A stretch of 64,000 nt of DNA from Haloquadratum walsbyi J07HQW2 (GTDB taxonomy: Archaea; Halobacteriota; Halobacteria; Halobacteriales; Haloferacaceae). The stretch lies in the NCBI RefSeq assembly GCF_000415985.1, contig NZ_KE356561.1:2847089-2911088 (forward strand), read 5' to 3'. Both the position numbers and the translations under genes were made by a program. Below, one piece after another: positions 1,795 to 53,399 of the stretch. Under the pieces are notes generated by a model that did no database searches, had not been told where the DNA came from, and worked only from the letters and a program-made list of their open reading frames with translations. The stretch's first letter is position 1, and each line of letters begins with the position of its first letter.

Positions 1795-2783
1795 TCAGCG
1801 TCTCTGTAATCGCACATCAAGACAGATGTTGTACTCATGAGGTGCATATGACCGGACTTCATGCCGTGTCTCAACGGACACGGTGTACGTTTGCTCTGCA
1901 GCCGATCGAATTGCATTAATCCCAGGCTCAAATAGTGTATCCTCGTGTTGAATATCATAATAATGAATCACACAGTCATCACCAGCGAGTCTCACAGCCG
2001 TCTGTAAAAATTCATCAGCACTGTGAGGAAGATTCATTATTAATCGATCAGCCCAGTCTGTGTAGGAATCAGATAATGCTTTGACGTCCCCAGAAGCGAC
2101 AGTAAGATTATCTACGACGTCATTTTGTTCGGCATTTATTAACAAATACTCAACAGCAGATTCATTCAATTCAGCAGCAACAACATCTGCACCATGAGCA
2201 GCCATTGGAACTGCAAATGGTCCGACTCCGGCGAACATATCAATTACACGTTCATTAGAATCACTCTGTGTAACCACACGATGACGCTCAGTCGCAAGTC
2301 GTGGTGAAAAATACATCGAGTCGACATCCAATTTGAACGTGTGTCCATACTCTCGATGACATGCTTCTGTTTGCTCTCCAACGAGGACGTCCCAATCACG
2401 GGTTCGATATGGTCCATGTACCTTTGAGGCTCGATTTAGGACAGTCTTAACAGGAATGTCAGATTCGACATCGCATCAGCAACCGCACGTGCTTTCTGAT
2501 CGTCAGCTTCATCAATGATAATAATCTCACCGAGCCGTTGATATGAGGGATCAAATCCAAGTTTATCAGCAGGGGTTGTTGGTGTATCACGAGTCGTTAC
2601 CCCGTGTGTCACAACATTGAATTGATCAGATACAGCCGATGGATCGGTAACAGGTATATACAGATAATTGTCTGTTGTATCAATCTCATGAATGGTGTCG
2701 ATAAGCCCTCGTTCAGCAAGTGTTGTCCGCGTTTGCTCACCTGCGGTCGTCGGGACACGAACACAAGGGATGTCATCAGACAT
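1795..2783 (-). pseudogene. trm5: tRNA (guanine37-N1)-methyltransferase Trm5/Taw22, frameshifted near 2470
   Basis: The product would methylate G37 next to the anticodon using S-adenosylmethionine. Two frames together make about 329 residues, the usual length. The N-terminal frame (MSDDIPCVRVP to VADAM) runs from 2783. Near 2470 the frame must move by one missing base to continue as VESDIPVKTVLNRASK, then DWDVLVGEQTE, YFSPRLATERHR and the SAM-binding DMFAGVGPFAVP. Adding one base restores the alignment without loss, so a single-base deletion fits best. The genomic cause is open: true inactivation, sequence error or recoding. The gene is likely important for reading-frame maintenance, so a real loss would be surprising. 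It lies close to tRNA-Thr on the same strand. Confidence 0.85.
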
Positions 2784-5271: not shown

Positions 5272-7342
5272 TCACAATTGCATATGCCCTTTCGCGAATA
5301 TATCGATATTAACACCGAGTGTCTCCGTGAGTGCATCGGCAGCCCCAAGCAGCCATCGCGCTCGCTCGACGTGTGACTCAACATCCCCAGGACCGACGCG
5401 GTATGTCTCAACAATTTCATCAATTGTCACTCCATTGCTCCATGCAGTAAGTATCCGTGCGAGCTTAATTGTACAGAGCCATGATTCAAAATCATCAATT
5501 TCGCCCATGTCCCTCACAAATGAGTCCATGTTGCTCGTTGCAAATCGATATAGATCAGCTCGTTCACTATTCCCAAGATATGTATCATGCATATCAGGCG
5601 TCCCACATACGATTTCAAGCGCAGTTAACACCGCAGTACGCTCTACCGGCAGCGTCGCAATCGATTGAATCCCATCAACGAGTTCTGCGCCTGTCGTTGG
5701 TCGAATGTACTGCTGTGAGACAGTCTGACCAACTGATGTCGCAGCAAGTGCTGTGTCGGATGTATCTGCCGTGAGCAGTCCCATGTCAATCAGTTCAGTC
5801 ACAACATCATCAACGACAGCGGTGAGATCTGCTGTGGATGATTGATGTGCGAAAAACGTCGAATCTAATACATCAAGGATTTGATCATTTGAGTCAGCGA
5901 ATCCAGCAACGATCAATGCAAGAACATGTGTTCTGAGTGCGTCACGAGCTGTAAGCTGTGATTCAATGGATTCAGGACCCGCATCAATATATTGACGCCA
6001 TCTTGATCCTGTTCGGATATCTCTGTCATCATTTACAGATACTTGTGTACTACTTGAATCAGTGTTATTGACTATATCACCAATCAGGACTGCCTCTCCA
6101 TACGGGTCAAGATGCGGTCGACCAGCCCGACCACACATCTGATGTACCTCAAGAGCAGGTAGCCGTGCCATCTTCTCTCCTGTATATCGTTTTAAATCTC
6201 GAACGACAACACGCCGCGCTGGAACATTCACGCCCGCAGCAAGCGTTGGTGTTGCACAGATCACGCGAAGGTCGCGGTTACGAAACGCCGACTCGATACG
6301 GATTCGATGATCACTTCGAAGTCCAGCATGGTGAAATGCAACGCCGGCAATCACCGTGTCTGCGAGCTGTCGCCCAGTCGGTGTAGTTCCAATATCGCGT
6401 ATGTCCTCAGCAAGCTCGGTATTTGATCCAAATCCTACAGCAGCTAACTGCTCGGCGAGTGACGCTGCTTCCCGACGTGACCGAACGAACGCAAGACACT
6501 GTCCACCCGATTCAACCGCATCGGATACAAGCGCAATCGTAGCCTCTGTGTCTGTGTCTGTGTCTGTGTCTGTGATCAGTATCAGTATCAGTTCCATCAT
6601 CCACCGTTTCAATTTCAGGGGTAGCAGTACGATTACTATCGGCTGCTATCGACAACCGGTTTCCATCATCAAAGACAACCCTCTCGTCAACTGCATCATA
6701 AACACCTGTTCGGAGCGAGACTGGTCGCCAAGTTGAAGAAACAAGCTCTGCATCCAACCATGACGCGACTTCCTCTGGATTATCAATTGTTGCTGAAAGT
6801 GCAACAACTTGCACACCAGGTGCTCGTCGCTGGATTGTCGCAAGCGTTATCTCAAGCGTTGGACCTCGATTTGCACTTCCGAGTAAGTGTACTTCATCAA
6901 CAACAACGCAAGCTAATTTATCGACCCATGAGGCGCCGTTTCGAATTGCAGAATCAACCTTTTCAGCTGTCGCAACAACGACATCAGCAGTCTCTAAATC
7001 GTCTTCAGCCGTGTCGAAATCTCCTGTCGAAATGGCGGCTTCGATACCAGGAAGTGCGGTGAATGCCTCATATTTCTCCCTCGCAAGGGCTCTAAGCGGA
7101 ACAATATATAATGCAGGTCCATCGGCTGTCAACATCGCTAGTTGCGCAATAAGCGTTTTTCCAGCGGCAGTTGGAATAGCGACAATGACGTTTTCACCAT
7201 CAACAACGCCGGCTTCCACCGCTGCTTCCTGTGGAGGATACAACTGTGTGATACCCGCATCGTAATAATGTTCGCGAATAGCTGCGGACACCGGCAATTC
7301 CTTGATGTCCAATGACACACCATTATTCAGACCTACGTGCAC
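5272..7342 (-). pseudogene. Hel308-like superfamily 2 DNA helicase, split by a frameshift at hexanucleotide arrays
   Basis: The gene encodes an ATP-dependent 3'-5' DNA helicase of the Ski2/Hel308 type, linked to replication-fork repair. The N-terminal frame (from 7342) has the Q-like motif PPQEAAV, Walker A AIPTAAGKT (about residues 55-63), DEVH (149-152) and LSATID. The C-terminal frame (ending at 5272) has FVRSRREAA, FHHAGL, ATPTLAAGVNVPA and motif VI HQMCGRAGRP, then winged-helix and ratchet-like regions. The joined length of about 690 residues is near the family norm. The frame changes by one base exactly where two hexamer arrays meet (6574/6575). Both correct frames read Thr-Asp repeats there, so the arrays lie in a poorly conserved acidic linker. 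It could be a contingency switch, a true pseudogene, or an error in repetitive sequence. Confidence 0.85.
6545..6592. repeat. Two abutting hexanucleotide arrays inside the helicase gene
   Basis: Plus strand: TCTGTG five times (6545-6574), then ATCAGT three times (6575-6592). On the coding strand both encode Thr-Asp repeats, but in frames offset by one base, so the helicase frame breaks at the junction. Hexamer gain or loss alone would keep frame; an odd event at the junction is needed. Confidence 0.9.
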
Positions 7343-30570: not shown

Positions 30571-31090
30571 TCAATTCGTCGGAATGACCGTTAATGCGGC
30601 TTCGATACTGCGGAGTGCGTCTGCACCCTCCCGACGTGGAACGACGATAATGAACATATCACCCACACCCACACTTCCCATTGCTTTGATATTGATATCG
30701 TCCGTTTGGATGTGCTCAATTGCTGTTGTGAACCCCGATATGGTTACCTCGGAGATATTGTCAACAATAATAGCGGATAACTGTCCATCAGTCGTAATAA
30801 TAATGTCTCAACATCCGATTCATTTTGATCTTGAACTACATCATGATCCTCGCTCACAATATCAACGCCATGATGCATTCGAACTGTCACATCGGATGCT
30901 TCTACGGTAGTGAACTCATCAAGAGTATCAGCAAATCGACGAAGCGCTCGTGCAACTGAGTCAATATCTCCATCGATATCAAGAAACGATGCGGCGGCGC
31001 GATAATTGATGATATCAGCGCGTAACGCGATTACAAGCCAAGCCAAGGATGAGCACGAGCAGCAGCACGTGTCTCAGCAGCGAGTGACAT
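30571..31090 (-). pseudogene. DUF7523-like protein, broken by two frameshifts
   Basis: Three frames together rebuild one protein. MSLAAETRAAARAHPWL begins at 31090; IALRADIINYRAAASFLDI continues after a break near 31040; IITTDGQLSAIIVDNISEVT and RREGADALRSIEAAL continue after a second break near 30803 to a stop at 30571-30573. I recall this layout (N-terminal helix-turn-helix-like region, then ACT-like C-terminus) from the haloarchaeal DUF7523 group. The first break coincides with a 5-bp tandem duplication (AAGCC twice at 31035-31044 on plus); removing one copy joins HPWL to VIALRADIINY. The second needs about one added base. It lies immediately upstream of cysS. Confidence 0.75.
31035..31044. 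repeat. 5-bp tandem duplication causing a frameshift
   Basis: AAGCC-AAGCC on plus, followed by AAGG. On the coding strand one surplus GGCTT moves the reading frame by +5 and creates an immediate TAA. Deleting one copy restores the conserved frame of the gene at 30571-31090. Confidence 0.85.
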
Positions 31091-51866: not shown

Positions 51867-53073
51867 ATGGCGGGCAGCACTGCTGATGCACATTCTCGTC
51901 TGCTCGTACCTGTCAGAGAGTCCACGACGATTCGAAATACCGTTGCGTACGCAGTTCGCGCTGCTGAGTCAGCAGCAACAGCGAGTGAGGATCCGGCTGT
52001 CCACTTCGTTTATCTCTCACGACAACGAGCGGTTGATGACGGCGCTGCTGGTAATATTTCTTCGGGTGATGAACTTTTAGAACGCGTGACTGTGTGGGCA
52101 GATGAGGATAGGAATACTGCTGCTGGAATCGGAATCGGAATCGGAAGCGGAAGCGAAAGCGGAAACGAAAGGTTCTGTAAATGCTGATACTGCCGATGAG
52201 AATGTGATCGAGATCGAAACGGCACTTCTTGGCACGGATCGATATCTATTCAGTCCTGCTGACTTTGCTGAGATCACCACTGACTACGCTGAAGAACATG
52301 ATCTTAATCGGATTATTATCGATCCCGAATACCAACCTGGTGGAGGAGCACCGATGCTTCGGTCATTTGAGACAGCCCTCGCACAGACGGACTGTACCGT
52401 TGAGGAAGCTCCGGTTGACCGCCAAACCAGTCGATCGCGAATATCAACCCCTTCAACGCTGACGAAAGGTATTGCAACATTTCTTGTTTGCAATGTATTT
52501 TATCTCCTCATCGCCGGATCGATAACCCCATTTAATCTCTTGACTGGTTCGGTAACTGCACTTGCTGCCTCAATCGCGTTTTCGAATATTACATTCACTA
52601 CTTCGCCAGGGTTCATTCAAACTGGTATTCGTGTGCTCCGAATGGGTGTATTTGTTCCATATCTCTTGTGGGAGATTGCAAAAGCGAATCTTGCAATTAC
52701 GTATATCATTCTTCATCCATCGCTTCCAATCGACCCGGAGATGCAGCAGTTTCGCGCTGGCGTTCGAGGGGCCCTCCCAGTGATGACGCTTGCAAACAGC
52801 ATCACACTTACTCCTGGAACGTTAACAGTCGATGTTGATGATGGGCTCTACATCCACACATTGACTGAAAGCGCACGTGCTGATCTTAGCGCCGGTGGTC
52901 TAGAGCGAGCAGTCCGATTCGTTTTTTACGGACGGGCAGGCGCCCGACTTCCGGCACCGACAGAGCGCAATAGTATCGTTTCGATTACAACTGATCCTGA
53001 CTCCGAGTCTGATCTCAATACCGATATCATTACTGAGTCATCTTCATCGCAGACACCACAGGAGGCTGACTAA
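51867..53073 (+). pseudogene. mnhE: Mrp/Mnh antiporter subunit E with N-terminal Usp-like domain, frameshifted
   Basis: The N-terminal frame (from ATG 51867) is like a universal-stress-type domain (SRLLVPVRESTTIRNTVAYAV; VHFVYLSRQ). The frame breaks by one base in 52102-52184, at or before a degenerate GGAATC/GGAAGC hexamer array, and ends at 52187. The +1 frame continues as VIEIETALLGTDRYLFSPADFAE, completing the Usp-like part. The MnhE domain follows with two or three membrane helices (FLVCNVFYLLIAGSITPFNLLTGSV; IAKANLAITYIILHPSLPIDPEM; TLANSITLTPGTLTVDV). Internal ATG 52102 could start a shorter MnhE. Subunit E is needed for antiporter assembly. A true loss would be costly, so error or re-initiation should be considered. 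Confidence 0.8.
52125..52172 (+). repeat. Degenerate hexanucleotide array in mnhE
   Basis: GGAATC three times, then GGAAGC twice, GAAAGC, GGAAAC and GAAAGG. The +1 frame reads acidic Glu-Ser/Glu-Ala repeats, typical of haloarchaeal linkers; the upstream frame reads Gly-Ile/Gly-Ser. The frameshift therefore sits at the left edge of the array. Confidence 0.8.
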
Positions 53074-53399
53074 TGTCTATATCGCTAACAGCCATTATAC
53101 AGAGTAATATTGATCTTGGTCTTAACGACCCAATCGAAGCTGTGTTTATTGGGGCTGCTGTTATTCTTATTTTGTCAGCAGTCATACTCTCATATCGAAT
53201 CGTTTCTGGACCAACGATGCAGGATCGAGTTATCGCAGTGAATAGCGTTGGGACAACAACAGTCGTTGTTCTAGCACTCCTTGCGGCAGCACTCGATCGT
53301 CCTGGTTTTCTTGATATTGCTCTTGTGTATGCAATGTTGAATTTCCTGATGAGTATCGCTATTTCGAAATTTACTGTCGAACGCGGAGACGTGCTCTAA
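53073..53399 (+). CDS. mnhF: Mrp/Mnh antiporter subunit F
   Basis: 108 residues, three membrane helices. IEAVFIGAAVILILSAVILSYRIVSGPTMQDRVIAVNSVGTTTVVVLALLAA contains the conserved GP-x2-DR-x2-A-x-N loop of MrpF. It belongs to the Na+(Li+)/H+ antiporter, which exports sodium using the proton gradient. One-base overlap with mnhE. Confidence 0.93.
   Translation: MSISLTAIIQSNIDLGLNDPIEAVFIGAAVILILSAVILSYRIVSGPTMQDRVIAVNSVGTTTVVVLALLAAALDRPGFLDIALVYAMLNFLMSIAISKFTVERGDVL

Follow-up and report, generated by a model that had tools for sequence, protein, structure and literature searches.

A one-base break in the only trm5 gene of a composite Haloquadratum walsbyi genome is most likely a consensus error

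Archaeal Trm5 and the split locus

The tRNA guanine37-N1-methyltransferase Trm5 of archaea is coded in one reading frame that covers domains D1, D2, and D3; the best solved relatives of the protein considered here are 5yac, called Trm5b, and M. jannaschii MJ0883 (2yx1/2zzm). As described in PMC5372744, D1 and D2-D3 of the M. jannaschii enzyme behave independently, D2-D3 is active alone, and Arg145 together with Asn265 recognizes G37. In H. volcanii, one m1G37 gene, HVO_0929, has been assigned by homology (PMC2584109).

In the window, i.e., the whole 64,000-nucleotide stretch analyzed here, which sits in one scaffold of 3,594,539 bases, D1, D2, and D3 are also covered when both parts of trm5 are taken together; however, these parts occupy two adjacent frames (Table 1) instead of one continuous frame, with the split at approx. 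2469. In particular, residues 1-105 and 106-329 of the C23 Trm5 (329 aa) match the two frames in a tblastn search against the window and meet at 2469, and the C-terminal frame is open from 2475. The D1 domain profile PF18093 matches the N-terminal ORF (E 1.3e-11), and PF02475, the TRM5/TYW2 methyltransferase domain, matches the C-terminal ORF (E 4.4e-39). A chance match is excluded, as one half shares 73% and the other 81% of its residues with a single relative protein. DNA alignment demonstrates that the gene is one base short compared with both J07HQW1 and C23 and that it carries no other frame change; the deposited gene has 989 nt including the stop, whereas 329 codons and a stop amount to 990 nt. 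A sequence-only reading of this DNA had placed a single missing base near 2470 and had held that adding it would restore 329 residues, and the tblastn search, the alignment, and the length of the gene agree with both points.

Table 1. Features of the trm5 locus, frame lesions, and repeat arrays (window positions unless a scaffold is named)
Feature	Position	Strand	Remarks
trm5 (tRNA guanine37-N1-methyltransferase), frame interrupted	1795..2783	-	sole copy in genome; profile and DNA searches, relatives' alignment
N-terminal ORF, 115 aa, D1 domain (Pfam Trm5_N)	2436..2783	-	out-of-frame tail; TAA at 2436-2438
C-terminal ORF, 178 aa from TTG at 2331, TRM5-TYW2 methyltransferase domain	1795..2331	-	
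One-base deficit relative to both close relatives	2466..2473	-	placement resolvable only to within a few bases; scaffold position about 2,849,558
Last stop of -1 frame to stop of 0 frame	2436..2478	-	a -1 shift could join the parts
hel308-like helicase gene, TCTGTG hexamer array in variable linker	6545-6574		splits ORFs 5272-6612 and 6512-7342
159-aa gene, frame-breaking 22-nt gap relative to both relatives	30777-30807		
398-aa gene with repeat insertion	window genome		
Short gene broken at hexamer repeat	window genome		
DNA polymerase B-like gene, lesion in intein-looking stretch (codons 319 to 750)	scaffold C1 about 2,944,189		
glpA-like gene of the sister genome (G016)	C1 about 1,076,914		protein otherwise about 90% identical
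Hexanucleotide arrays	52125-52164; scaffold C1 about 2,944,189 and about 2,970,598		

Counted in the J07HQW1 protein, the break falls at residue 103, within D2 (Pfam TYW2_N_2 spans 77-136). Upstream of TTG 2331, no ATG, GTG, or TTG was found in the C-terminal frame; the C-terminal part has an in-frame ATT at 2457. The C-terminal ORF lacks the stretch from the break to 2331, including the residue that aligns with M. jannaschii Arg145, a position counted by hand from the alignment. An internal start yielding a working D2-D3 was rejected, as the earliest ATG/GTG/TTG is 2331, beyond the Arg145-aligned residue. Unless the frame changes or a rare start codon is used, this gene cannot yield an intact D2-D3, and thus a real break should abolish the Trm5 enzyme.

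Copy number, conservation, and constraint of trm5

A profile search of the genome yielded a single match to PF02475, the DNA of trm5 likewise has a single match in the genome, and no match to TrmD (PF01746) was found across it. A further copy of the trm5 locus was sought in viral_contigs, with no match. These searches rejected both a second copy and a replacement enzyme; a second intact trm5, which the earlier reading had named as the finding that would overturn it, is therefore absent from this assembly. With a sole trm5 copy and no TrmD, a true break should leave the organism unable to make m1G37.

The family was surveyed in 148 genomes, 147 of which have a Trm5 match, and the best match reaches E 1e-19 or better in 146. 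The open frame is no shorter than 319 aa in 145 of these 146 clear matches, and the window genome alone is shorter (226 aa). G046 has a weak Trm5 match only, and G012 has none; as G012 holds the first part of trm5 beside a run of N, its gene is cut by an assembly gap. The frame break was found in none of the relatives examined, the two closest included. trm5 is one open frame throughout in H. walsbyi J07HQW1 (KE356560.1), which has 79% DNA identity to the window over the locus, and in comparison genome G015, which we take to be H. walsbyi strain C23 (78%). Across the trm5 region, DNA identity to C23 is 83.7% for J07HQW1 vs. 77.6% for the window genome.

In comparison with C23, dN and dS are 0.147 and 1.53 for the first 104 codons and 0.102 and 1.12 for the remaining codons. 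On the branch leading to the window genome, the dN ratio of trm5 is 0.89, which ranks 71 among 97 genes, at the upper quartile and a little above the median (0.74). No other lesion was found in the 989 nt of the gene. A decaying pseudogene was rejected on the grounds that there is no second lesion and that both parts are under ordinary constraint, and nothing in the sequence suggests that trm5 has long been dead. Moreover, CCN proline codons number 44.3 per 1000 in the window genome, 44.7 in the sister, and 44.4 in C23; CCN use shows no sign of long-term m1G37 loss.

Frame lesions in the composite genomes

Frame lesions in conserved genes were counted in collinear stretches of 184 kb in the window genome, 220 kb in the sister J07HQW1, and 200 kb in C23. 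The sequence-only reading had stated that this genome carries other frame lesions, which is borne out: 6 of 112 conserved genes in the 184 kb, trm5 included, are broken, as are 6 of 130 in the sister, compared with 1 in 253 comparisons in C23. Taken together, the two composites (12/242) differ from C23 (1/253) with a Fisher p of 0.0013, which serves as a guide only, given that the 253 comparisons (116 + 137) partly concern the same C23 genes and are not independent. Single-base lesions outside repeats amount to 3/242 in the composites vs. 0/253 in C23, a difference that is not significant (p = 0.12). The lone C23 lesion is probably a by-product of the broken polymerase gene of the sister.

The counts were hand-curated from the frameshift calls of C23 to the window genome, of C23 to J07HQW1, and of the window genome to C23 together with J07HQW1 to C23. 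A 209-aa ORF (window 53295-53392), which looks like a wrong-strand ORF, was dropped together with its sister call, the two composites sharing the difference from C23. Also dropped were STOP calls lying no more than about 60 codons from the ORF start, which resemble start-site differences, and, from the J07HQW1-to-window-genome calls, a stop at codon 208 and a frame call at 174406, which were taken as paralogue matches (63-73% identity).

The five other lesions of the window genome lie at hexanucleotide repeats or consist of a 22-nt gap (Table 1); the helicase, polymerase, intein, glpA-like, and DHH-like names used here come from reading the translations only. The hel308-like linker is also broken in the sister composite and is one frame in C23. 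The polymerase-B-like gene is broken in both composites as well, and it is hard to believe that both truly have a broken replicative polymerase. Outside repeats, the sister has two one-base deletions approx. 60 nt apart in its glpA-like (glycerol-3-phosphate-dehydrogenase-like) gene and one one-base deletion in its DHH-like gene. Per 184 kb, the two Lake Tyrrell composites contain 13 and 15 hexanucleotide arrays vs. 3 in C23, and several arrays coincide exactly with frame breaks in conserved genes. Either the assembly may have collapsed repeats of varying length at these arrays, or the repeats may truly drive variation of the frame there.

Explanations of the frame break

According to PMC3630111 (Podell et al. 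2013), the window genome is a composite Haloquadratum walsbyi population genome from Lake Tyrrell; the composites were built de novo with Celera 5.4 and iterative binning from the reads (Sanger and 454 Titanium) of many cells, and the mean depth was 8.8-fold for both Haloquadratum composites. These reads belong to BioProject PRJNA59457, and Lake Tyrrell short reads obtained later cover 99.7% of J07HQW2 at a mean depth of 222-fold (PMC4330952). Table 1 of PMC3630111 and the GenBank title of KE356560.1 seem to use the labels J07HQW1 and J07HQW2 the opposite way round. The trm5 break is best explained as a consensus error that the living organism most likely does not share (probability approx. 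0.77), given that a composite consensus of approx. 8.8-fold mean depth underlies the scaffold and other frame lesions occur in it. Its observed basis consists of the one-base deficit, the single copy, the lack of further decay, and the presence of lesions in both composites. A one-base undercall, or a single deletion-bearing read, may have become the consensus at this site, in which case the underlying reads would show an intact trm5, and G37 is most likely methylated in the organism by a normal Trm5 of 329 residues. The lesion is like the single-base consensus errors of composite and draft assemblies in that a one-base deletion interrupts an otherwise constrained gene, but it differs from the typical ones in adjoining no run longer than 2, whereas 454 errors are typical of long homopolymers. 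Further points against a consensus error are that the assembly started from Sanger reads (PMC3630111), that trm5 has the sole one-base lesion outside a repeat among the 112 genes of the window genome, that natural populations may truly differ from an isolate, and that the branch dN ratio of trm5 exceeds the median. The case counsels caution: reads should be checked before single-base lesions in important genes of composite population genomes are called gene loss.

Next in likelihood, though clearly unlikely, is a real and very recent frameshift in some cells, in which case the sampled genotype would be a trm5 mutant, perhaps temporarily viable through polyploidy or doomed; in a polyploid, other chromosome copies could stay intact. 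This accords with the deposited sequence being broken at a site that is not an obvious place for homopolymer errors, and a low-depth consensus from a diverse population may retain a minority variant. It is opposed by the long open frames kept across the family, by the undecayed state of the rest of the gene together with unchanged CCN use, and by the lack of either a second copy or a TrmD to compensate. It is very improbable that a free-living Haloquadratum lineage of Lake Tyrrell really is without the sole m1G37 methyltransferase it once had and copes with unmethylated G37 and raised +1 slippage in translation, and the real loss of Trm5 that the sequence-only reading had entertained is unlikely, a consensus error being the better explanation. 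An even more doubtful proposal is that Trm5 is split and works as two polypeptides: the independence of D1 and D2-D3 in M. jannaschii and the activity of D2-D3 alone (PMC5372744) would favor it, but the break lies inside D2, and the C-terminal ORF, starting no earlier than TTG 2331, is devoid of the Arg145-aligned residue. Least likely, and scarcely credible, is recoding, by which the ribosome would shift by -1 within the 43-nt stretch to make full-length Trm5, possibly as a form of regulation. The frames do overlap for approx. 40 nt without a stop, so that a -1 shift would join the parts; however, no X_XXY_YYZ slippery heptamer was found in 2436..2478 and the longest run there is 2, and on this basis both programmed frameshifting and transcriptional slippage were rejected. 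A programmed -1 frameshift should, moreover, be kept in relatives, which instead have a continuous single frame, the two closest included (at least 319 aa in 145/146). Thus, of the two explanations that the earlier reading had wanted set aside first, recoding has no supporting signal, whereas error remains the best explanation. That reading had also linked the gene to +1 slippage. m1G37 does prevent +1 shifts, and not -1 shifts, as reported in PMC5372744; the link is irrelevant here, since trm5 needs a -1 (or +2) shift and +1 slippage without m1G37 would not mend it. If the break were real after all, an archaeon living in nature would lack m1G37, in a family that keeps the enzyme in a long open frame in 145 of 146 clear matches.
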